From Minisyncoccota bacterium (lineage in GTDB: Bacteria > Patescibacteriota > Minisyncoccia > Phycocordibacterales > UBA12079), in NCBI GenBank assembly GCA_023140255.1, contig JAGLLX010000002.1, positions 1 through 36,588 of the forward strand: 36,588 nt of DNA. Direction: 5' to 3'. A program made the translations under genes and the position numbers. Positions 20-24,348 of the stretch are shown here, in pieces (position 1 is the stretch's first letter; every line of letters begins with the position of its first letter). The notes under the pieces were generated by a model, which did no database searches, had not been told where the DNA came from, and worked only from the letters and a program-made list of their open reading frames with translations.

Positions 20-295
20 TTATTCCTCAATTTTTATTGCCTTACCTTCAGTTAAAGCTACTGTAATTTTTTCATAAGCAGAATTTAAAATTCTTTGAAA
101 AGTGCTGGTGGAAGTATCCATCTTAACTGCACAAGCTTGTTGGTCTAATTTTTTTATATTTTTTAGACGCAAAGCTTCAATTTCTTCTTTACTTAATTTT
201 ATTATTTCTAATAAGTTCATTTGTACTCCTTGAGGTTTGAAGTAAGCAATTTGAGGAGAAAAATTTACTCTCCTTTGTAATCTTGGTCTAGGCAT
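20..295 (-). CDS. DUF134 family predicted DNA-binding protein
   Basis: 91 aa, MPRPRLQRRV start and C-terminal HTH (ACAVKMDTSTSTFQRILNSAYEKI) typical of DUF134/UPF0251. Confidence 0.85.
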   Translation of the reverse strand: MPRPRLQRRVNFSPQIAYFKPQGVQMNLLEIIKLSKEEIEALRLKNIKKLDQQACAVKMDTSTSTFQRILNSAYEKITVALTEGKAIKIEE

Positions 296-362
296 AATTT
301 TTTTTATTTAAAAATATTTAACCCTGCTTATAAAGCAAGGCTAGATATTTTATTACTGGGAT

Positions 363-572
363 TTATCTGTTGCGTCGGCCAAAACCAAGTCGTCCGAAGA
401 AACCTTGTCTTCCTCGTCCAAAACCTCCTTGTTGTTCTAGGTTTCTTCCTTTTCCTTCTCCTCGTCCATCAAAAGGTCTTGCTTCTTGTGGTTTAGCGTC
501 ATCGCATTTTCCCATTTGGGCTCCTGTCTTAGGACCTTTTCCTGCAGGACCTGTTCCATCAAATTTAGGCAT
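363..572 (-). CDS. DUF5320-like Gly/Arg-rich small protein
   Basis: MPKFDGTGPAGKGPKTGAQMGKC N-terminus followed by GRG/FGR low-complexity tail; adjacent to DUF134 as often seen. Confidence 0.75.
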   Translation of the reverse strand: MPKFDGTGPAGKGPKTGAQMGKCDDAKPQEARPFDGRGEGKGRNLEQQGGFGRGRQGFFGRLGFGRRNR

Positions 573-786
573 AATAATATTTTAGTAAGTTAGGTTATTA
601 GATAAACTTAGATTTTAGGAATGAGTTTTTGTTTTGCAAAAATTCATTTCTGTAAGTTTACCGAGTAATCTAGAAAGAATAAACTTTCTTTTATTCTTTT
701 TTCTTACTGATTAATCTTTTTATAAAATCGACTTTTATAATTAAGAGTATATACCCATAATAAATTAAAGTCAAGGAAATTTAAAT

Positions 787-810
787 TCCAAAGTCCTCGA
801 GGACTTTGGA
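787..810. repeat. 24-bp perfect palindrome TCCAAAGTCCTCGAGGACTTTGGA
   Basis: Direct reading; self-complementary, no clear T-tract. Confidence 0.7.
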
Positions 811-968
811 GCTCGAAATTTTTTAAAAAAGTTTTTAAAAAAATAAATTTGCAAAAAAAGTTATCAACATATTTTTTTATTAAAAAAAGTTATAGAATTA
901 AGGTAACTAAGAAAAAAATAAAAGTTGGTCGTTTTTATTTTTACTTTTAAATAATAATTATAAAAAAT

Positions 969-1190
969 ATGGTTAAAGCAAAAAAAGCTGTGAAAAGAAA
1001 AGTAGCAAAAAAAGCTCCTAAAAGAAAGGTAGCTAAAAAGACTACTAAAAGAAAAGCAGTTAAAAAAGTTACTAAAAGAAAGGTAGCTAAGAAACTAGTA
1101 AAGAGAAAAGTAGTAAAGAAGAAAGTTGTTAAGAGAAAAGTAGCTAAGAAGCCAGCAAAAAGAAAAGTAGTTCGTAGAAAGAAAAAATAG
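969..1190 (+). CDS. Histone H1-like Lys/Arg-rich repeat protein
   Basis: 73 aa composed of KRKVAKK-type repeats. Confidence 0.75.
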   Translation: MVKAKKAVKRKVAKKAPKRKVAKKTTKRKAVKKVTKRKVAKKLVKRKVVKKKVVKRKVAKKPAKRKVVRRKKK

Positions 1191-1235
1191 AAACTTTTTA
1201 CTTAAAAACACCAGTCAGAAATGACTGGTGTTTTT
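1178..1235 (+). repeat. 58-bp direct repeat copy 1 (stop codon plus intrinsic terminator)
   Basis: Matches 3080-3137 with one mismatch (1190 g vs 3092 a); contains AAAACACCAGTCAgaaaTGACTGGTGTTTTT. Confidence 0.9.
1208..1235 (+). terminator. Rho-independent terminator after H1-like gene
   Basis: CACCAGTCA-gaaa-TGACTGGTG followed by TTTTT. Confidence 0.85.
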
Positions 1236-1346
1236 AATTAAATGATTTATATTATAAATAATATTGCTTTTTTAAATAAGCAGGTATACTATGTGTAATA
1301 GTTGATTTTTTAATCATAATTGGGATAGGAAAGGAGGTGAATTCAT

Positions 1347-1493
1347 ATGGAAGGGAAATTAACGCAGGTTAAACCTCTTATTTTAGATTTTGCAGAAACT
1401 GTTAAAATCGTTTATGAGGGAGAACAACAGGTTGTTTTTGGAGGTACCTCAATCGGTACTCATGATGAACCTGATTCTGCTGGTTTAGACTAA
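1347..1493 (+). CDS. Putative graspetide (ATP-grasp RiPP) precursor peptide, 48 aa
   Basis: ATG at 1347 preceded by AAGGAGGTGA (1331-1340); MEGKLTQVKPLILDFAETVKIVYEGEQQVVFGGTSIGTHDEPDSAGLD; Thr/Ser then Asp/Glu-rich C-terminus; directly upstream of an ATP-grasp ligase; absent from the supplied ORF track. Confidence 0.8.
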   Translation: MEGKLTQVKPLILDFAETVKIVYEGEQQVVFGGTSIGTHDEPDSAGLD

Positions 1494-1507
1494 ATGAAGG
1501 GATCTTT

Positions 1508-1540
1508 AAAAAGAGGGGCTTTTGAAGCACCCTCTTTTTT
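1508..1540 (+). terminator. Intercistronic hairpin (partial terminator/attenuator) between precursor and ligase
   Basis: AAAAAGAGGG-gcttttgaagca-CCCTCTTTTTT. Confidence 0.75.
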
Positions 1541-1572
1541 ATAGAAACTATTATATAAAGGAGGTTTGTTTT

Positions 1573-2502
1573 ATGATATTTATAATTGGAAATAGCAGAG
1601 ATTTAGTGGAACCCGTTGTTAGACATCTTCATAAAATTAGTAATGAAGAAGTTGTTATATTTAAGGCAGATCTTTGCCTTGAAAACGAAGGTGTTGGATT
1701 TTCTTTTATCAATAAGGAAATTGAAGTATTTTCAGATATTGGTATTTCAGAATATATTCTTAACAATGTTGAATCAGTATGGTTTTGGAAGCCAGTTTTA
1801 CCTAAGGTCCTAAGGGAATATTCTCCGCATGAAGAATCAGTTTTTATGTATCGACAGTTTTTGGCTTTATGGAGATCCCTAGCTTCACTTTTAAAAGAAG
1901 CTAGGTGGATTAATGATTATTATAAAATGCTCGAGGCTGAGCATAAACCTTTTCAGCTAAAAGTAGCACAAGATATGGGTTTTGTTATTCCTGACACCTT
2001 GATAACTTCTAATCCCGTTAGAGCTAAAGATTTTTGGAAATATTGTCAGGAAGAAATGATTGTTAAGACATTAACAACAAGTCTTCACGGGAATCGTATT
2101 ATTTTTACAAACAAGGTCACAGTAGAATTTATGAATAATATCGATAGACTTGTTTCTTCCCCTGTAATTTTCCAAAAGTTAATTAAGAAGAAGTTTGAAT
2201 TACGGATAACTGTGGTCGATAATAATGTTTTTGCTGCAGTTGTTAAAAGTTCATCAGAAATTGATTGGCGAAGGGGTTTAGGAGAAGCTTCTGTATTTGA
2301 ATTGCCTAGGAATATAAAACAACTTTGTGTTGATTATGTTTCAATGTTAGGTCTTCGGTTTGGGTGTATTGATATGATTATTACTCCTAATAATGAATAT
2401 TGTTTTTTAGAAATTAATCCAAATGGTCAATGGAAATTTATAGAGGAGCGCACAAAGCTTCCTATTGGAAAAGCTATTGCTTCTGCCTTAATTTCTAAAT
2501 AA
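1573..2502 (+). CDS. MvdD-like ATP-grasp ribosomal peptide maturase (graspetide ligase)
   Basis: SVWFWKPVLP, RWINDYYKMLEAEHKPFQLKVAQDMGFVIPDTLITS, VKTL, FQKLIKKKFELRITVV, DWRR, FGCIDMIIT...CFLEINPNGQWKFIE motifs. Start moved to ATG 1573 behind AAAGGAGG; the track start at 1522 is a TTG inside the hairpin. Confidence 0.88.
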   Translation: MIFIIGNSRDLVEPVVRHLHKISNEEVVIFKADLCLENEGVGFSFINKEIEVFSDIGISEYILNNVESVWFWKPVLPKVLREYSPHEESVFMYRQFLALWRSLASLLKEARWINDYYKMLEAEHKPFQLKVAQDMGFVIPDTLITSNPVRAKDFWKYCQEEMIVKTLTTSLHGNRIIFTNKVTVEFMNNIDRLVSSPVIFQKLIKKKFELRITVVDNNVFAAVVKSSSEIDWRRGLGEASVFELPRNIKQLCVDYVSMLGLRFGCIDMIITPNNEYCFLEINPNGQWKFIEERTKLPIGKAIASALISK

Positions 2503-2555: not shown

Positions 2556-3092
2556 ATGAATAAACAACTTAAATCAGATATATCTAAATATGTAACTCAA
2601 GATCAATATATAAGGAATTTATCTCTAAAATTTCCTAAAATAAAGGAATTGTGTTCAGAAGTGATTATCCAAGATGCTGTAACTAGAAAATTTGTTAAAA
2701 AAGTTTTAAATAAACATAAGTGGCCAACTATTTCATCAATCGGGGAAAAAACATCACATAATTTTTGGTTGTTAGTTCAACATATGGATAAAGATATTGT
2801 TTTACAAAAAAAAGCCTTAAGGTTTTTAGAGGAAGCTGTTGATAAAAATGAAGCAAACCCCAAAGATCATGCTTATTTAAAAGATAGAATTTTAGTTGCT
2901 GAGAATAAGAAACAGTTATATGGAACTCAATGGAAAATAGAAAACGGAGAATTATTTATGTTCTCGGTAAAAGATATTAAGAATTTAGAAAAAAGAAGAA
3001 AAGGTGTTGGTTTAACTATGGTAAATAAACAACAAGAACAATTAAAAAAAGAATATAAAAATATTTTAAAGAAAGTAATAAAGAAAAAATAA
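2556..3092 (+). CDS. DUF6624 domain-containing protein
   Basis: WPTISSIGEKTSHNFWLLVQHMDKDIVLQKKALRFLEEAV...AYLKDRILVAENKKQLYGTQW signature. Confidence 0.75.
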   Translation: MNKQLKSDISKYVTQDQYIRNLSLKFPKIKELCSEVIIQDAVTRKFVKKVLNKHKWPTISSIGEKTSHNFWLLVQHMDKDIVLQKKALRFLEEAVDKNEANPKDHAYLKDRILVAENKKQLYGTQWKIENGELFMFSVKDIKNLEKRRKGVGLTMVNKQQEQLKKEYKNILKKVIKKK

Positions 3093-3137
3093 AAACTTTT
3101 TACTTAAAAACACCAGTCAGAAATGACTGGTGTTTTT
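3080..3137 (+). repeat. 58-bp direct repeat copy 2 (stop codon plus intrinsic terminator)
   Basis: Matches 1178-1235 with one mismatch. Confidence 0.9.
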
Positions 3138-13934: not shown

Positions 13935-15257
13935 TTATTTTATCTCAACAACTTTTTTAGTTATAACAATCTTAGATTTAAAGCATCCCATTAATTCTCT
14001 TTTTTCTTCATTAGTTCCATCTTTAAGAATATATTTAGAGTAGGTTTTTAAATCTATGTCTTTATGTTTTGTATTTTTGTTTTGGATTCCTAAAACTCCA
14101 CGATTAAATTTGTTAAATCTTTTTAATTCTTTTTCAAACTTTATTTGTACACCAGTATTATTTAAATCTATTGAATCAAGAATCTTTACTAATTGATTGG
14201 TTAGTTCTTCTTCTCTAATGTATGGATTTTTACAACAACGATCTTTTGATCTTCCACATCCATAATAAATATATCTTGCTGAAGTTCCATCCTTAAGTTG
14301 CTTATACTTTTCCTCTGCTGAAATTCCAGAGCCACACAATCCACAAACCATTAATTTAGTGAAAGCAAATTCTTTGCTTTGTCTGACTATATTATCTCGT
14401 TTAAGTTGTATTTGAACTTTATCGAAGATTTCTTTTGTAACTATTGGCTCATGTTTTCCTTTATACCAATTACCTGACCCTCTAGGATATTCAAAAGTTC
14501 CGTAATAAAAAGAGTTTTGTAATAAACGATAGATATTACTAAGTGCGAGATTATGGTTACCAACTGATTTAAAATTTAATTCAAATTTAAGCCATTGATG
14601 TATTTTTCTACCCGACCATTTTTCATAAGCCATCTTTTCAAATATCTTTTTGATAATCGGAGAACGATCTGAATCAATGATAACTTGGCACTTCTTGTCC
14701 ATTTCTTTTTGATTAAGATAACCAACAGGAGCAACTCCAGGCCATAATCCCATCTCACATCTTGTCCTTAATCCTCGTTTTACATTTATGCCTCTGTTAT
14801 CATTTTCCAGTTTTGCTTGCGAACCTAAAATCATTAATAAGAACTTTTCATTTGGGTTGTTACCAAATTGTTGTCCAAATGTTCTAATATCTAAAAGATG
14901 ACCTGAATCCATTAAGTCTACTACCTTTCCAAGATCACCTGCATTTCTAGAGATACGATCAGGAGCCCAAGTTAATATCCCATTATACTTGCCTTGTTTA
15001 ATTTCTTCTATAATTTCGTTAAAAATAGGTCTTTGTCCTGTTTCTTTAGCTGAATGACTTTCTTTTTTCATAGAGACTACTTCAAGTCCCTCTCTGTCAG
15101 CTAATAGAAGCATTTCTTTAATCTGTGAATCTATTGAAAGTATCTGTCTTTCTTCAGATTCTGTTGATTTACGAGCATAAAGACAGTACTTCACTTTAAC
15201 CGCAGGTATAACAATTTTCTCATTCAAAGTTGTTTTTATAGGGCTTTCTATCTGCAT
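13935..15257 (-). CDS. Large serine recombinase
   Basis: YCLYARKSTESEERQILSIDSQI catalytic region, LTWAPDRISRNAGDLG, Zn-ribbon CGLCGSGISAEEK...YYGCGRSKDRCC. Confidence 0.9.
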   Translation of the reverse strand: MQIESPIKTTLNEKIVIPAVKVKYCLYARKSTESEERQILSIDSQIKEMLLLADREGLEVVSMKKESHSAKETGQRPIFNEIIEEIKQGKYNGILTWAPDRISRNAGDLGKVVDLMDSGHLLDIRTFGQQFGNNPNEKFLLMILGSQAKLENDNRGINVKRGLRTRCEMGLWPGVAPVGYLNQKEMDKKCQVIIDSDRSPIIKKIFEKMAYEKWSGRKIHQWLKFELNFKSVGNHNLALSNIYRLLQNSFYYGTFEYPRGSGNWYKGKHEPIVTKEIFDKVQIQLKRDNIVRQSKEFAFTKLMVCGLCGSGISAEEKYKQLKDGTSARYIYYGCGRSKDRCCKNPYIREEELTNQLVKILDSIDLNNTGVQIKFEKELKRFNKFNRGVLGIQNKNTKHKDIDLKTYSKYILKDGTNEEKRELMGCFKSKIVITKKVVEIK

Positions 15258-15368
15258 ACTTACATACTATCGCTATGGTTTTAAAAGTCTAGGTTATTTG
15301 TTGGTAACTAAATTACCCTTATTTTTCAATGTGAGTTAAGATGTTAAGTTATGATAACCTATGAAGGC

Positions 15369-15397
15369 TTGACTTTGTATTTACGACGCGATAGAAT
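15369..15397 (+). promoter_or_regulatory. Promoter for R-M operon
   Basis: TTGACT - 17 nt - TAGAAT, 13 nt before ATG 15411. Confidence 0.6.
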
Positions 15398-15410
15398 ACT
15401 TATTAATATT

Positions 15411-17096
15411 ATGCGTAAAGATATAAAAGCAAAATTAAAAGAAATGCCAGAACTACTTACTATTGGACAAGTAGCCGAGGTTTTTTCTATCCATCCTGAT
15501 ACTCTTAGAAATTGGGATAAAGAAGGTATTTTGGTTCCTTTGCGAGTAGGAACAAGAAAAGACCGAAAATATAGACCTCAAGATATTCAAACTATTATGG
15601 ATAAAATGGGTAGTAAACTTACACTTCCCCAACTAGAGCAATTCCTTTGGAAAAGTGCTGATATTCTTCGAGGTAAAATTGATGGTTCTGATTATAAGAA
15701 ATATATTTTTGGACTACTTTTCTTCAAAAGAATTAGCGATGTTTGGGATGAAGAATACAAAAAAACAAAAAAAGAGTATGGGGATAAAAAAATTGCTCGT
15801 GCTGATTACAATCATCGCTTCCAAGTTCCTAGAGAATGTCGTTGGGCTGTCGTAGAAGAACAAGCAGAAAATATTGGTCAAAAACTTAATGAGATTTTTG
15901 ATAAGTTAGCAAATGCTAATAGTCCTAAATTAGATAAAATTTTTGATGATTTGGACTTTGCTAATAAAGATCGTTTCCCTAATGAAACCACTCAACGATT
16001 AATAAATCATTTTTCTCAATATAATTTTGGTGATACCTATATAAGTTCGGATTTGCTTGGAGATGCATATGAATATCTAATTAAACAATTCGCAGCGGAT
16101 GCAGGAAAAAAAGGTGGTGAATTTTATACGCCACGAGAAGTTGAAAAAGTTATTGTTGAAATTTTAAAACCTCACAAAAAAGATCATATCTATGATCCAA
16201 CTGCCGGATCGGGAGGATTTCTTCTTGAATCTTTTCATTATTTAAAAAATAAAGAAAATGAATCAGTAGCAAGAACTCTCTATTTAAACGGACAAGAGTT
16301 AAATATAGGAACTTTCGCAATTGCAAAAATAAATATGTTTTTGCACGGACTAGACGGAGCTGACATTCAGAGAGGAGATACTTTAGCAAATCCACAATTT
16401 CTAAATCCAAATGGAAGCTTGAAAACTTTTGATATTGTTGTGGCAAATTTTCCGTACGCAATCAAAGATTATGAATACAATATTTTAAAAACAAATAAAT
16501 ACGGAAGAATTGATGGATATGAAATGCCTCCTAAGAAAAATGCTGATTATGCTTTTATCTTACATATAATTAAATCAATGAATTCAAACGGAAGAGCAGG
16601 GGTTGTTGTTCCTCATGGGGTTTTATTCAGAGCAGGAGCTGAAGGTCGCATCCGAGAACAAATATTAAAAAATGATTTAATTGACACTATCGTTACTCTC
16701 CCTCCAAAACTCTTTTATGGAACAGGAATTCCTGCATCTATTCTCATTTTTAATAAAAATAAAACAGAGGGAAGAAAAAATAAAGTTTTGTTTATCAATG
16801 CTGAAAAAGAATTTTCAGAGGATAAAAATCAAAATTCACTTCGTGTTCAAGATATTCAAAAAATAGCAAAGACATACGATAAGTATAAAGATATTGAAAA
16901 TTATGCTCGTGTGGTTGATCTAAAAGAGATAGCAGAAAATAAATACAATTTGAATGTAAGTCTTTATATTGAAAATGGAGAAAAAGAAGAAGAGATTGAT
17001 GTTTCTGTTGTTAAAAAGGAATTAATTCAATTAGAAAAAGAACGAACTAAAATTGATAAAAAAGTCGAAGGGTTTTTAAAAATACTTAAATATTAA
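15411..17096 (+). CDS. hsdM: Type I R-M methyltransferase subunit HsdM with N-terminal MerR/excisionase-like HTH
   Basis: N-term LLTIGQVAEVFSIHPDTLRNWDKEGILVPLRVGTRKDRKYRPQDI; MTase motifs DPTAGSGGFLLES and ANFPYA; start re-assigned from 15351. Confidence 0.9.
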   Translation: MRKDIKAKLKEMPELLTIGQVAEVFSIHPDTLRNWDKEGILVPLRVGTRKDRKYRPQDIQTIMDKMGSKLTLPQLEQFLWKSADILRGKIDGSDYKKYIFGLLFFKRISDVWDEEYKKTKKEYGDKKIARADYNHRFQVPRECRWAVVEEQAENIGQKLNEIFDKLANANSPKLDKIFDDLDFANKDRFPNETTQRLINHFSQYNFGDTYISSDLLGDAYEYLIKQFAADAGKKGGEFYTPREVEKVIVEILKPHKKDHIYDPTAGSGGFLLESFHYLKNKENESVARTLYLNGQELNIGTFAIAKINMFLHGLDGADIQRGDTLANPQFLNPNGSLKTFDIVVANFPYAIKDYEYNILKTNKYGRIDGYEMPPKKNADYAFILHIIKSMNSNGRAGVVVPHGVLFRAGAEGRIREQILKNDLIDTIVTLPPKLFYGTGIPASILIFNKNKTEGRKNKVLFINAEKEFSEDKNQNSLRVQDIQKIAKTYDKYKDIENYARVVDLKEIAENKYNLNVSLYIENGEKEEEIDVSVVKKELIQLEKERTKIDKKVEGFLKILKY

Positions 17097-17100
17097 TGAT

Positions 17101-18543
17101 ATGATTAAAAATGATACTAATATGAATTTGGTTAAAAAAGAAGAAGATTCAACTCAAGCATTGCAGTTATTTGAAGAGCTTGTATTAAAAAGTATAGAAT
17201 CATACGGTCTGCCTGTCAGAAATGTTTTAGTTGCAACAGAAGAAAGAGCCGTTATATTTAAAAATATGTTGCCTGTTTTGCAAAAAGTAGAACCTAGTAA
17301 AATAAAAGATTCTGTTTATATTTCAAAATTTTTAGCAGCTTCTGCTGTAGGTTTATTTGACGCTGCTTTAAATTATTTATGGGATGAAACTATTTCAGAA
17401 ATTCGGAAAAGGGCGGTTATTTATGACATACAATATTTTTATGATAATGCAACGAATAGCGAAAGAAAGAGAAAGAAATTAAAAAAAGAAGAAGATATTA
17501 TTAAGTTAGACGATCACGAGCTTATACAAGGTGCTCGTAAAATAGGTTTAATTTCAGAAATTGGATATAAACATCTAGATTTTATAAGATTTAATAGAAA
17601 TTGGGCTAGTGCAGCTCATCCAAACCAGAATAAATTAACGGGATTAAAATTGATTTCTTGGCTGGAGACTTGTGTTGAGGAGGTTATCTCATTACCTCTT
17701 TCTAATGTTGCTATTGAAATACAGAAATTATTAATAAACATTAAGAGTAATGAAATTACAGAAGAAGATTCTAAAAAAATAATTTCTTTTTTTGATGAGC
17801 TTCCACAAAAACAAGCAAATAATTTAGCTTTGGGTTTTTTGGGAATATATACAGATGAAGATATATCTCCCACAACTCGTCAAAATATAAAATATTTAGC
17901 TCCTTCTCTGTGGGAAATGATTGAAGAGGAAACAAAAGTAAATATAGGGATACGTTATGGAAAGTTTATGGCTAATAACGATGAAAGCGGAGCTTCTTTG
18001 ATAAGAGGTTTCTTGGATATGGTTGAAGGGTCTTCGTATATTCCTGAAAATATAAAAATAGTTGAGATAGAAGATGCTATGGAAAATTTATTAGACATTC
18101 ACCATGCAATAAATAATTTTCACAATGAACCTATATTTGCAAAAGAGTTATACAATATTATTGGTAAAGATAATAAAATTCCTTCATCTATAATGAAAAA
18201 AACAGTATTTGGTATTATAGAAGTTTTTTTAACGAACGGGTATGGTGTAGCTTTTTGTGCCGAAAAATACTATATAGAATTGATTAAACAATTTAGTCAA
18301 AAAGAAGCCTTTTTTGCACTTATTTCTTTTACTGAAGAAGGAATAGCAAGTACTTTACAATTTTCTTTATGTGAAAATAAATATAGAGAATTATTAAATT
18401 TAATTAAAGACAAACTTACTTCTAGCGTTATTTTAGAGTTATTTGAAAAGGTTAGAAAATTTCAAGGAGATATTAGTTTAATTGGAAAAGATACAGATAT
18501 CAAACAAAAAATAGCTAATGCAAAAGTTATTTTAAAAAAATAA
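17101..18543 (+). CDS. Unknown R-M-operon protein, possible HEPN-like domain
   Basis: 480 aa between hsdM and hsdS; RNWASAAHPN (R-x6-H) motif. Confidence 0.5.
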   Translation: MIKNDTNMNLVKKEEDSTQALQLFEELVLKSIESYGLPVRNVLVATEERAVIFKNMLPVLQKVEPSKIKDSVYISKFLAASAVGLFDAALNYLWDETISEIRKRAVIYDIQYFYDNATNSERKRKKLKKEEDIIKLDDHELIQGARKIGLISEIGYKHLDFIRFNRNWASAAHPNQNKLTGLKLISWLETCVEEVISLPLSNVAIEIQKLLINIKSNEITEEDSKKIISFFDELPQKQANNLALGFLGIYTDEDISPTTRQNIKYLAPSLWEMIEEETKVNIGIRYGKFMANNDESGASLIRGFLDMVEGSSYIPENIKIVEIEDAMENLLDIHHAINNFHNEPIFAKELYNIIGKDNKIPSSIMKKTVFGIIEVFLTNGYGVAFCAEKYYIELIKQFSQKEAFFALISFTEEGIASTLQFSLCENKYRELLNLIKDKLTSSVILELFEKVRKFQGDISLIGKDTDIKQKIANAKVILKK

Positions 18544-18555
18544 AATCTTAAATTG

Positions 18556-19710
18556 ATGAAAACTAAAGAAAAACAAAAAAATATTCCAAAAGGTTGGAAA
18601 ATTAAGAAAATTAAAGACTTACTTGATTACGAAAGACCTGATAATTATATCGTCAAAAATACTAATTATAGAGATGACAAAAAGATCCCAGTACTTACAG
18701 CAAACAAATCATTCATTTTAGGTTATACAGATGAAGATTTTGGTATTTATGAAAATACTCCAACTATAATTTTTGATGATTTTACTACAGATAGTAAGTA
18801 TGTTGATTTTCCTTTTAAAGTTAAATCATCGGCTATAAAAATTTTAAAAGAAAAAAATAATGACATAGATTTAAGGTTTGTTTATGAAAAAATGAAATCC
18901 ATTGATTTTCCAAGGGGAAATCATAAGAGATACTATATTTCTCAATATCAAGAAATGAATATTTTGACACCGCCTTTTAAAGAACAACAAAAAATTGCGG
19001 AGATTTTAGAAACGGTTGATAAAGAAATAAAAAAAACTAATGAGATTATAAACAAAACAGAAAAGTTGAAAAGAGGGATAATGCAAAAACTTTTTATTCA
19101 AAAGGATAGAGACAAAAAATTTAAAAATAGAAAAGTTAACGAAATAGCAAATGTTTTAACAGGGAAAACACCTAAACGAATAAAAAAAGAATTTTATGAA
19201 AACGGTATCTTCCCTTGGGTTAAAAGTACAGAAGTTAATTTTGAAAGAATAAAAGATACTTCTGAAAAAATAACGAAAGATGCTATTAGAATTGAAAATA
19301 TGAAAATAGTTCCAAAGGGGGCTGTTTTGGTTGCTATGTATGGACAAGGAGTAACGAGAGGAAAAAGTGCAATTTTAGATTGTGAGGCAACAACTAATCA
19401 AGCCATTGCTTCAATTGTTCCAAATTCTGAATTAACGACAGACTATTTATTCTATTGGTTATCTTTTCAGTATGAAAATCTTAGAAATTTAGGGCATGGA
19501 GGTAATCAAAAAAATTTAAATTTAGATATTATTAAAAATATAGAAATTTTTCTCCCAGATACAAACTATCAGAAAAAAATTACAAAAATTCTTTCAGCTG
19601 TTGATGAAAAAATTTCAGTTAATAAAAAGCTAAAAGAAAAATTAACTCAACTCAAAAAAGGCCTTTCTCAAGACCTTTTGAGTGGTGAGGTTAGAGTTCT
19701 AATAACATGA
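18556..19710 (+). CDS. hsdS: Type I R-M specificity subunit HsdS
   Basis: Two TRDs each followed by conserved coiled-coil: PPFKEQQKIAEILETVDKEIKKTNEIINKTEKLKRGIMQKLF and LPDTNYQKKITKILSAVDEKISVNKKLKEKLTQLKKGLSQDLLSGEVRV. Confidence 0.92.
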   Translation: MKTKEKQKNIPKGWKIKKIKDLLDYERPDNYIVKNTNYRDDKKIPVLTANKSFILGYTDEDFGIYENTPTIIFDDFTTDSKYVDFPFKVKSSAIKILKEKNNDIDLRFVYEKMKSIDFPRGNHKRYYISQYQEMNILTPPFKEQQKIAEILETVDKEIKKTNEIINKTEKLKRGIMQKLFIQKDRDKKFKNRKVNEIANVLTGKTPKRIKKEFYENGIFPWVKSTEVNFERIKDTSEKITKDAIRIENMKIVPKGAVLVAMYGQGVTRGKSAILDCEATTNQAIASIVPNSELTTDYLFYWLSFQYENLRNLGHGGNQKNLNLDIIKNIEIFLPDTNYQKKITKILSAVDEKISVNKKLKEKLTQLKKGLSQDLLSGEVRVLIT

Positions 19711-20867
19711 TTTCAAAAAAAGAGATAGAAAGAATTATAGAGTATAAATTGTTGGGGCTAAAAGCACTCGGAGCTTTTGTTGTTGTTCTTTTTCAAAGTT
19801 CTATATTTTTTATATTTTATTTTATAATTGATATCTCACTCAGTTTTTATCAAAAGTATCAAGGTGATAAGAATCAAGATCTTTCTAACGAAGAAGTAAC
19901 AACTATTAAAAAAACAGCCACAAAAACACAAAAAACTCTTGATAAATTGGCTAGAGATCAAAAAGAATACAATATGGAAGAAGTTAGAAGAAAAGAATCT
20001 CTTTCTTTATTAAATAAACTTCTTACAGAAAGTGAAGTTCGAGAAAAAGATTTGTTATCACTTACCAGCACATCAGAATATTATCAACTTTTTGTTTACA
20101 GTGCCTCTCTTAGTCGGTTAGTTAAGTCATTAGACATTCCTGATTTTGGAACACAACCAAATAGACTTTACCCGATTTTTTTAAAAGATCTTGGTTTCGC
20201 AAGATTAGGGAAAGGATCCCCCTCTCTTTTGATAAATAAAAACAATTTAAAAGAAAAAAAACTTACAGATATTAAAGAATTTAAAAAGTTCTTGATGTAT
20301 CATTTTAGTAAAGTTAGAGGTAAAGAATGGAAAGATTTTATAGAAAAAGTTAAAAGTTTTGATAAAAATAAATCACAAAAATTAAAAAAAATTAATTATA
20401 GAGATATGGGTTATTTAAAAATTAATTTTTTACTAACCGAGACAAATATGAATATTACAAATGTTGGACTTGTTGATGGTGAACATTTAGGTCTTGGAAG
20501 TGTAAAAAACGATGAAGATATAAATAGACAAATACTTTTAAGAACTAATATTAAATCTGAATCAGATAAAGAAGATTTAAAAATTCGTATTAGAAAAGTT
20601 ATAAACAAACAAGATATATCTTTTCTCTTAAATGGAATATCTAAAAAAATTAAATTAAAAATTGAATCAGAACAAGATACTATAAAAGAAAATTTAAATA
20701 TTAAAACGGTGTTAGGTTTTAGTACAATAAATGAATCTGATTTAAAAAAAGAACTTGTACGAGTAGGATTAAACGAAAAAGAATCAAAATCTGTCTCGAA
20801 TAAAATAATAAGTCGTACCCAAGAATATCAATTAGCATTAGATAACTTACAAATAAATATAGAATAA
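19707..20867 (+). CDS. Novel membrane-anchored coiled-coil protein within the R-M operon
   Basis: TM segment GAFVVVLFQSSIFFIFYFIIDISLSF then coiled coil; ATGA overlap with hsdS, 1-nt overlap with hsdR. Confidence 0.7.
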   Translation: MISKKEIERIIEYKLLGLKALGAFVVVLFQSSIFFIFYFIIDISLSFYQKYQGDKNQDLSNEEVTTIKKTATKTQKTLDKLARDQKEYNMEEVRRKESLSLLNKLLTESEVREKDLLSLTSTSEYYQLFVYSASLSRLVKSLDIPDFGTQPNRLYPIFLKDLGFARLGKGSPSLLINKNNLKEKKLTDIKEFKKFLMYHFSKVRGKEWKDFIEKVKSFDKNKSQKLKKINYRDMGYLKINFLLTETNMNITNVGLVDGEHLGLGSVKNDEDINRQILLRTNIKSESDKEDLKIRIRKVINKQDISFLLNGISKKIKLKIESEQDTIKENLNIKTVLGFSTINESDLKKELVRVGLNEKESKSVSNKIISRTQEYQLALDNLQINIE

Positions 20868-23773
20868 TGAAATTCAACGAACAATATACAATAGAAAATC
20901 ATATCATTAAGTTCTTAGAAAAAGAGCTTAGTTATGAATACATAAAACCGAAGGACTTTGCAAAACTGCGGGAATTTGAAAATGAATATATTATTTCATC
21001 TCTTTTGCTTGATGCTATAAAAAAAATAAATAATGTTTCTGAAGATGAAGCTAAATCTGTATTACGAGAAGTTAGAAAAATAGATAATAATGAAGATTTT
21101 CTTAAAACTTTCCGTAATGGAATAAATCTCAAAGATTCTGAAACTGGGAAAATGAGAGATTACTTTATTATTGATTTTGATAATCTTGAAAATAATCGTT
21201 TTGTAGTAACCAATCAATTTTATTTTGAAGGAAATTCTGAAAATATAAGAACTGATGTTTTGGTATTTTTAAATGGTTTGCCTATTGTAAATATTGAAGC
21301 TAAAAGTCCTACCGCTTCAAGCACTGTAAATTATGCAAACGCTGTTGGACAAATAAAGAGATACGAGAGAAATGCCTTTAAACTTTTTTGGCCAAATTGT
21401 TTTAATATTGCTACTGACGGGCTAGAAACAGTTTATGGAGCTACTTATTCTCCAGCTCAGTATTTCTTGAAATGGAAAGAGGAGGAATTAAGTAAAAAAT
21501 ATGAAGAAGAACTTGAGATGACTTTATTTGCCTTATTATCGCAAGAAAGATTATTGGATATTATCAGAAATTTTATTCTTTTTGATAAAGATAAAGAACA
21601 AACCATAAAAAAAATTGCTCGATATCAACAATTAAGAGCAACTAATAAAATTGTAGAAAGAGTTAGAAAGGGAGAAGATAAAAGAGGACTTATTTGGCAT
21701 ACTCAAGGATCAGGGAAATCACTGACTATGTTTTTTACTGCATGGAAGTTACGATTTAATAAAAACTTAAAAAATCCAAAAATTTTTATCTTGGTTGATA
21801 GAATTGATTTAGATGATCAAATTTATGAAACTTTCGCAAATTGTGGAGGAGAAAATGTTGTGCGAGTAAATTCTCGTCGTGATCTTGAGAGAAAAATAAA
21901 ATCATCTGAAAGAGGAATTTTTATTTCAACTATTCAAAAGTTTTCTGAATTAGGAAATGATGTGAAAAATCTCGATGAAAATATAATTGTGCTTTCTGAC
22001 GAAGCTCACCGAGACAATGAGGGAATTTCAGCAATCAATTTAAGAAGTTCAATGGAAAATGCTTTTTTCTTTGGCTTTACAGGAACTCCTATTGATAGAA
22101 CTACTTTAAATACTCATAGAAATTTTGGAGCTGAAGGAGAAAGGTATCTTGATTATTATTCAATCAAACAAGCTATTGATGATGGAACTACTCTCCCTGT
22201 TACATATGAGGCAAGATTATCTAAATTTTTTATTGATGAAGAAAAACTTGATAAACAATTTGAAGAAATGACTGAAGGGCTTTCGGAAAAAGAAAAGGAA
22301 CAAATATCTAAAAAATATGGAAGAAAAGAAGCTATTGTAAAACTTGATAAACGAATGGAAGCAATTGCTCAAGATATTGTGGAACATTTTAAATTATATG
22401 TTGAACCCACAGGATTTAAGGCTCAGATTGTTTGTTATGATAGAGAGGCTACAGCTAAGTATAAAGAACTTCTTGATAAACTTGTCCCTAAAGACTGGTC
22501 AACCGTTATTTATTCCGCAGGTGATCCAAATACAAGTCCTGAAGAATTACAAAAATATAATACTACCAAGGCAAAAAGAGAGAAATTAATTAATGACTTT
22601 AAAGACCCTAATAGTCCTTTAAGGTTTTTATTAGTGTGCGATATGCTCTTGACTGGTTTTGATGCTCCTATTGAACAAGTGATGTATTTAGATAAGCCTC
22701 TCTGGGATCATAATCTTTTACAAGCTATTGCTAGAACCAACAGAATCTATCCAAATAAAGGAGCTGGGAAAATTATTGATTATTACGGAATAACTAAAAG
22801 TTTACATAAAGCTTTAGATTTTGATGAAAGTGAAGTTGATTCTGCGATGATTAATATAGATAAACTTAAAGAAGAATTCAAAGATATTCTAGATGAAATT
22901 ATGGATATTTTTATAAATGTAAATATTGAAGATCCTTCAATCGAGAATCTTCGTCGTTGTTTGAAAATATTTGCCGAAAATAATGAGAAGCAAAAATTCT
23001 TTAGTAATAAATATGGGCGATTAAAACTTTTGTTTGAAGTTTTGTCCCCTGATCCTTTTTTGAAAGAATTTGTGAGAAAGTTTGGATGGTTAACTAGTGT
23101 TTATATTGCTTTTAGTAAAGAATTTGGTGAAAGTGCTTATAGCTCAGAAGTTTTGGCTGAATATGGAGAAAAAGTTAAAAATTTAATTCAACAAAGAGTT
23201 GATTATGAAGGAATTACAAAAAATTTCAGGGAATTAAATATAAATGATTTATATGTGATGGAAAGACTGAATAAAATGGATGATGAAGATAAAGCTTTAA
23301 ATCTTGAAAAGATGTTGAAGCAAGAAATTTCTTTAAATGTTGATACAAATCCTGCTTACAAAAAATTTAGTGAAAGATTATCAGCCATCAGAAAAGAATT
23401 TGAGAAAAATCAAATTGATTTAGCTGAAAGAATTAAGCGATATCAAGAACTACTTGAAGATATAAAAAATAAAGGTGATGAAGCTAAAGAGCTTGGATAT
23501 TCATTAAAAGAATACGGACTTTATGTAATTTCGGAGGAATTTATTAAAGGAGACAAAAATCTGATAAGAGAATTTATTCAAGAAATGTCTAAAAGAATCG
23601 AAGGGGTTCTTGACGGAGGATGGCAAGAATCTTCTAAAAGAGATGAATTTCTGAAAGAAGTTAAACGAATTATTCAAGAATTAATACTAAAAGAATATAA
23701 AGAAAAAATAGAAGTTTCTGATTTCCATAAATATCTAAATCGTCTAGTAGACATCATAATTAAAAAATTCTGA
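20867..23773 (+). CDS. hsdR: Type I R-M restriction subunit HsdR
   Basis: PIVNIEAKSP nuclease motif, WHTQGSGKSLTM, LSDEAHRDNEG, FTGTPI, QAIARTNRIYPNK. Confidence 0.95.
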   Translation: MKFNEQYTIENHIIKFLEKELSYEYIKPKDFAKLREFENEYIISSLLLDAIKKINNVSEDEAKSVLREVRKIDNNEDFLKTFRNGINLKDSETGKMRDYFIIDFDNLENNRFVVTNQFYFEGNSENIRTDVLVFLNGLPIVNIEAKSPTASSTVNYANAVGQIKRYERNAFKLFWPNCFNIATDGLETVYGATYSPAQYFLKWKEEELSKKYEEELEMTLFALLSQERLLDIIRNFILFDKDKEQTIKKIARYQQLRATNKIVERVRKGEDKRGLIWHTQGSGKSLTMFFTAWKLRFNKNLKNPKIFILVDRIDLDDQIYETFANCGGENVVRVNSRRDLERKIKSSERGIFISTIQKFSELGNDVKNLDENIIVLSDEAHRDNEGISAINLRSSMENAFFFGFTGTPIDRTTLNTHRNFGAEGERYLDYYSIKQAIDDGTTLPVTYEARLSKFFIDEEKLDKQFEEMTEGLSEKEKEQISKKYGRKEAIVKLDKRMEAIAQDIVEHFKLYVEPTGFKAQIVCYDREATAKYKELLDKLVPKDWSTVIYSAGDPNTSPEELQKYNTTKAKREKLINDFKDPNSPLRFLLVCDMLLTGFDAPIEQVMYLDKPLWDHNLLQAIARTNRIYPNKGAGKIIDYYGITKSLHKALDFDESEVDSAMINIDKLKEEFKDILDEIMDIFINVNIEDPSIENLRRCLKIFAENNEKQKFFSNKYGRLKLLFEVLSPDPFLKEFVRKFGWLTSVYIAFSKEFGESAYSSEVLAEYGEKVKNLIQQRVDYEGITKNFRELNINDLYVMERLNKMDDEDKALNLEKMLKQEISLNVDTNPAYKKFSERLSAIRKEFEKNQIDLAERIKRYQELLEDIKNKGDEAKELGYSLKEYGLYVISEEFIKGDKNLIREFIQEMSKRIEGVLDGGWQESSKRDEFLKEVKRIIQELILKEYKEKIEVSDFHKYLNRLVDIIIKKF

Positions 23774-23775
23774 TA

Positions 23776-24348
23776 ATGAAAAAAGATATTACATTAAAAA
23801 ATAAAAAAATCTCATACACCCTTAAAAAGAGCACGAGGGCTCGAAGAATGAGGTTGGCGGTTTATTGTGATGGAAGTATAGTCGTAACCACTCCTCTTGG
23901 TTTGAGAGGAAATATTGTAGAAAAGTTTTTAACTGAAAAAACCCAATGGTTATTTACTAAATTAAATTTTTTTAAGCAATTTGAGGGCAAAGCAATTACA
24001 AAGTATAGTCATGAAGACTATTTAAAATTTAAAAAAGAAGCCTGTATCTTAGCTGAAAATAGAATTTCTTATTTTAATAAAACATATAAATTAAAATACA
24101 ATAAAATAAGTATAAAAAATCAAAAAACCCGTTGGGGTAGTTGTTCAAAAAAAGGTAATTTAAATTTTAATTATAAGATAGCGCTTTTGCCTGAAAAAAT
24201 TTCTGATTATATTATTGTTCACGAATTATGTCACCTAAAAGAATTTAATCACTCAAAAAAATTCTGGAATTTAGTTGCTAAAGCGATTCCTGATTATTTA
24301 GAAATTAAAAAAGATCTCAAAAAAAGTGGTTATCAATTTTATAAATAA
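23776..24348 (+). CDS. YgjP-like (DUF45) zinc metallopeptidase
   Basis: TRWGSCSKKGNLNFNYK...IIVHELCHLKEFNHSKKFW. Confidence 0.88.
   Translation: MKKDITLKNKKISYTLKKSTRARRMRLAVYCDGSIVVTTPLGLRGNIVEKFLTEKTQWLFTKLNFFKQFEGKAITKYSHEDYLKFKKEACILAENRISYFNKTYKLKYNKISIKNQKTRWGSCSKKGNLNFNYKIALLPEKISDYIIVHELCHLKEFNHSKKFWNLVAKAIPDYLEIKKDLKKSGYQFYK

Follow-up and report, generated by a model that had tools for sequence, protein, structure and literature searches.

Graspetide loci are already known from bacteria of the candidate phyla radiation (CPR), in which Makarova et al. (2022, PMC8939145) distinguished two branches (1 and 2) of ATP-grasp enzymes. According to the accessible sections of that paper, the CPR loci also contain an uncharacterised family, 'cluster 23', whose members share conserved His and Arg residues and in many cases are lipoproteins, and a role of the peptides in competition between CPR cells or in host interaction is suggested. 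In the accessible part of a later survey (Carter et al. 2026, PMC13097080), DUF6624 proteins are described as common in groups 18, 20, 23 and 42 of the graspetides and as possibly a new biosynthetic enzyme, group 42 being rich in candidate phyla and in DUF6624.

The window, by which we mean the whole stretch of DNA analysed (36,588 nucleotides), is a contig of a 564-kb genome that is 97% complete. The source organism and its congener G002 belong to the CPR/Patescibacteria, the source organism being of the ultra-small, symbiotic type. We propose that the locus listed in Table 1 is very probably a horizontally gained three-gene graspetide cassette. A ligase of the graspetide type, an adjacent conserved precursor, a leader motif and a core with donor and acceptor residues are all found in it; its ring pattern, crosslinking, export and function are predictions from sequence. 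As in the loci of Makarova et al., the host is a CPR bacterium, an ATP-grasp gene accompanies a short precursor with a Phhx(1,2)h leader, and an uncharacterised conserved protein is associated; DUF6624 is likely to be their cluster 23; in the window protein no signal peptide can be recognised. Neighbours resembling the Tiki superfamily or alpha/beta-hydrolases, present in some of their loci, occur in our set in genomes G184, G223 and G432. With group 42, as far as it is described in the accessible text of PMC13097080, the locus shares a candidate-phylum host and a DUF6624 neighbour, which are insufficient alone for membership. The resemblance to microviridin systems (MdnB/MdnC, AMdnB) lies in ligase homology over the ATP-grasp domain and in a leader segment, PLILDFAE, comparable to PFFARFL. 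Unlike those systems, the window has one ligase, a different core and neither an acetyltransferase nor a peptidase-transporter nearby. Both CPR graspetides and their association with DUF6624 having been published (2022 and 2026), the locus adds one more of a known type.

Table 1. Features of the window and of the comparison loci referred to in the text
Sequence	Feature	Positions	Strand	Evidence or remark
Window	58-bp direct repeat, left copy	1178-1235	+	hairpin -23.6 kcal/mol, z -7.6
Window	Shine-Dalgarno of precursor gene, AAGGAGGTGA	1331-1340	+	direct reading
Window	putative graspetide precursor, 48 aa	1347-1493	+	direct reading, homologues, purifying selection
Window	intrinsic-terminator-like hairpin, precursor/ligase spacer	1508-1540	+	MFE -20.4, z -3.75
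Window	putative ATP-grasp graspetide synthetase, 309 aa	1573-2502	+	NCBIfam profiles, PDB relatives, conserved residues
Window	DUF6624 protein, 178 aa	2556-3092	+	PF20329 1e-13
Window	58-bp direct repeat, right copy	3080-3137	+	hairpin -19.9, z -5.6
Window	region resembling a separate island	13935-24348		by eye
G002, L014	second-ligase locus	1276-2268; 2334-2537	+; -	
G346, L029	locus related to second pair of G002	957-1142	+	
G432, L076	ligase frame	74-910	-	
L022	candidate precursor	1262-1432	-	
L025	candidate precursor	859-1011	-	
L021	candidate precursor	1289-1441	-	
L005	candidate precursor	1255-1410	-	
L058	short ORF beside DUF6624	1213-1335	+	
L060	short ORF beside DUF6624	2058-2171	-	
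G007, L071	DUF397-like small protein (presumed)	2558-2767	-	

The first-pass annotation had assigned the ATP-grasp gene to the graspetide ligases from hallmark segments of its translation, all of which are present. Profile searches bear this out, the NCBIfam models TIGR04187 (200 bits, 4e-59), MvdC (197 bits, 6e-58) and MvdD (156 bits, 1e-45) scoring far above the RimK family, so that the protein does not cluster with non-RiPP ATP-grasp enzymes; grasp-with-SPASM reaches 79 bits. All of these scores lie below the curated cut-offs of the graspetide models, which marks the protein as a divergent relative and not as MvdC or MvdD proper. Its solved relatives are AMdnB, MdnB, MdnC and CdnC, with matches to PDB entries 7m4s (AMdnB, 2e-44), 5ig8 (6e-40) and 5ig9 (8e-32). 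Residues K165, R211, DWRR (231-234), D267, E280 and N282 are kept, and from general knowledge of the fold we take these to be the expected ATP-grasp centre. A mechanical ORF list places the start of the gene at TTG 1522; we prefer the ATG at 1573, 79 nt after the precursor stop, since it has its own ribosome-binding site (AAAGGAGG) and fits the homologues. No match to the ligase was found among viral contigs, and a viral origin was accordingly set aside. It is the only graspetide-type ligase in the source genome. The congener G002 carries, 3 kb from its first ligase, a second and unrelated graspetide-type ligase with a candidate 67-aa precursor, and genome G346 has a ligase and peptide related to this second pair; the two share the core HMT[IV]VTTxGxxPEMxDxxEDATR and have no adjacent DUF6624 gene.

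The short ORF upstream had been read as a 48-aa precursor with a good Shine-Dalgarno sequence about 80 nt before the ligase gene, and its translation proved exact, with AAAGGAGGTGA located 6-7 nt upstream of the ATG. Homologues were found in G002 (46 aa), in G184 (48 aa), a member of another family of the same order in which the ligase is 54% identical, and in G432 (47 aa), from another order of the class, in which it is 52% identical. All three sit upstream of the orthologous ligase, so the ORF does not lack conservation, which would have told against it. The family was thus traced in four genomes: a class-wide search contributed G432, a phylum-wide search of 384 genomes gave no further member, and a pattern-based scan of 85,462 species genomes, which detects close relatives only, returned G002 as the sole close relative. 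The four accompanying ligases form one clade (support 100/99), which makes the ligase grouping congruent with that of the precursors. The ligase frame of G432 departs from its homologues near the C-terminus, close to the contig end, and may represent a broken gene or an assembly error. Between the window and G002, the aligned part of the precursor (leaving out the unalignable first residues) differs by 14 synonymous and two amino-acid codon changes, compared with a neutral synonymous fraction of 0.29 (binomial p 2e-6); NG86 gives dN 0.058 and dS 1.02, and in the core the changes are synonymous only. The precursor is under strong purifying selection.

All four precursors contain the Phhx(1,2)h motif that PMC8939145 gives for leaders, here in the form PLILDF or PLILDL (consensus PLILD[FL]AE, residues 10-17 in the window). 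The predicted core, T34 to D48, reads TSIGTHDEPDSAGLD in the window and equally in G002, TSRGTHDEPDTAGLD in G184 and TTQGTYDEPDSAGPD in G432, giving a C-terminal consensus T[ST]xGT[HY]DEPD[ST]AGxD that holds in 4/4. The hydroxyl donors and acid acceptors that the first-pass annotation had assigned to this segment (T34, S/T35, T38, D40, E41, D43, S/T44 and D48) are likewise kept throughout. By analogy with characterised relatives, PLILDFAE would dock on the ligase as PFFARFL of microviridin does; with ATP, the enzyme would activate the side-chain carboxylates of D40, E41, D43 and D48 within the last 15 residues, and the hydroxyls of T34, S/T35, T38 and perhaps S/T44 would attack them, closing ester rings. 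As the core has no Lys, rings of the amide type are not expected. The conserved donors and acceptors exceed the number needed for rings, and for that reason connectivity cannot be read from the sequence. It had further been proposed that this core may define a new graspetide group. In favour of this, the CPR branch 1 core TxxxTx(6-10)Dx(1-4)D, as quoted in the accessible part of PMC8939145, fails as a regular expression in the window, G002 and G432 and passes in G184 only; on the other side, CPR graspetides are published there, and a group with candidate phyla and DUF6624 (group 42, PMC13097080) exists. The precursor family may perhaps be uncatalogued, set apart from branch 1 by that pattern.

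The same annotation took the GG before the core as a leader cleavage motif, and here the relatives disagree: G184 has AQ at this position and G432 has AG, and GG is therefore not to be taken as the cleavage site. Its remark that no exporter is adjacent was borne out. Searches of the source genome gave neither a C39 peptidase (PF03412) nor an ABC exporter membrane domain (PF00664), the latter search being positive in 13 of 14 control genomes; for the exporter domain, congeners G001-G003 had nothing above cut-off and G184 and G432 did. At 97% completeness these absences are likely but not certain. None of conserved GG, PF03412 and PF00664, on which double-glycine cleavage by a C39 peptidase/ABC exporter would depend, was thus found, and leader removal and exit probably proceed without a peptidase-ABC transporter of the usual kind; it is more likely that a general protease acts or that the peptide stays in the cell. 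It seems doubtful that the whole of a larger picture holds, in which a cell lacking both exporter and C39 peptidase makes a graspetide that acts inside or leaves by another route and is matured with DUF6624 as a new RiPP maturation enzyme or partner. Use of the peptide in competition between CPR cells or in host interaction is a guess.

The spacer between precursor and ligase contains a hairpin with a T run. In G002 the spacer is of unrelated sequence, yet it too has a hairpin and T run at the same place; the spacer of G184 contains an inverted repeat rich in GC but lacks a T run. Partial termination here would probably yield more precursor than enzyme mRNA, the hairpin holding the latter below the former.

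The locus had been regarded as a two-gene system, a description that has to be extended because the transferred unit includes DUF6624 as a third gene, one that is also found again next to related ligases; this gene, the hairpin and the 58-bp repeats were all additional to the first-pass annotation. Among 397 sampled genomes of the order, the ligase was matched in 39 and DUF6624 in 32; 13 genomes had the two together, against 3.1 expected (Fisher p 1e-6, a value that ignores the kinship of the genomes). Of about 35 related ligase loci, 13, the window included, have DUF6624 within about 1.5 kb of the ligase, and it follows the ligase in the three precursor-family members with a contig reaching that far. 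Its alignment has invariant residues D16, Q17, H76, D110, Q120, G123, Q125 and R148. A profile search of solved structures found nothing (best E 0.62), and a structure prediction from two sequences (pLDDT 50, pTM 0.35) gave no hint of fold. Candidate precursors lie between ligase and DUF6624 in G342, G105, G142, G248 and G067, and, outside the present precursor family, DUF6624-linked loci have single-locus candidates with PITFLHAE, PITFLNAE or PFMFQFAE at the leader position. The candidates in L022, L025, L021 and L005, each with the ligase on one side and DUF6624 on the other, have PIT[FL] or PFMF leaders, and two of them share a core end like [NQ][DE]xDTFIQG-GDSDT (NDTFIQGSGDSDT, QDTFIQGTGDSDT). 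In L058 and L060 no graspetide-type ligase lies within 1.5 kb of DUF6624, but beside it are short ORFs that have good ribosome-binding sites and end in D/T-rich stretches (TGRSGAGDPDD, TTGRRMKDPD); these are possible precursors of another system. In CPR genome G007 a small protein, which we take to be DUF397-like, lies 0.6 kb from DUF6624.

The three genes are flanked exactly by two 58-bp direct repeats identical at 57/58 positions. The left copy comprises the final codons of a Lys-rich histone-like ORF and its intrinsic terminator, the right copy the final codons of DUF6624 and a terminator; the palindrome has these two copies genome-wide and none elsewhere. Congeners G003 and G001 lack the ligase. 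Their histone-like gene has the same tmRNA-smpB-ftsH surroundings but is followed by one related terminator only, and the cassette is absent there. G002 has the three genes at a different site, adjoining a NUDIX gene. The unique repeats and the empty site suggest that precursor, ligase and DUF6624 were gained together, most likely in one joint event at this site; loss from both G003 and G001 is a possible, less simple alternative. No recombinase is present inside the unit. Elsewhere in the window, a region holds a serine-recombinase-like ORF beside a type I restriction-modification-like set (HsdM-, HsdS- and HsdR-like) and a metallopeptidase-like ORF.

Two quite different interpretations of the first two genes were considered. 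A short ORF with a strong ribosome-binding site and a terminator-like hairpin directly before a gene could be a regulatory leader peptide, whose translation attenuates the ligase gene and which is no substrate at all. What is conserved, however, is the amino acid sequence, most of all in the last 15 residues, across ligases only 52-54% identical; no single regulatory residue is repeated in a run, the hairpins are unlike in sequence and the G184 spacer has no T run, and the ligase belongs to a family that modifies just such upstream peptides. We therefore hold attenuation to be very improbable. Equally improbable is that the enzyme is RimK-like and attaches amino acids to some protein or metabolite, with the ORF merely as a neighbour: it matches the RimK domain PF08443 (6e-12) and the RimK family model TIGR00768 (6e-20), but the latter at only 72 bits against 156-200 for the graspetide models, its best solved relatives are microviridin ligases, and the congruence of the precursor and ligase families speaks against it as well.

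More weight has to be given, within a graspetide system, to a position of DUF6624 outside biosynthesis, where it would serve in immunity or host interaction or be a mere passenger. In 19 of the 32 DUF6624 genomes no ligase was detected, which implies that the family has other contexts, several ligase clades are without it, and the search and model described above point to no fold. Its repeated occurrence next to ligases from several clades, in the five genomes named above with a candidate precursor in between, its place inside the gained unit and its high frequency in four graspetide groups, as given in the accessible part of PMC13097080, make this the less probable reading, though one with some standing. 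Most likely, DUF6624 would belong to the same pathway, as a partner or a tailoring protein.

The graspetide cassette proposed here is a compact and sharply bounded CPR unit, in which precursor, leader and core are defined by comparison and which could be expressed in E. coli. Hardly any natural product of CPR bacteria has been put to the test, and DUF6624 is an uncharacterised protein that is met repeatedly next to graspetide genes; the three short genes found here would make both a CPR graspetide and the role of DUF6624 testable.
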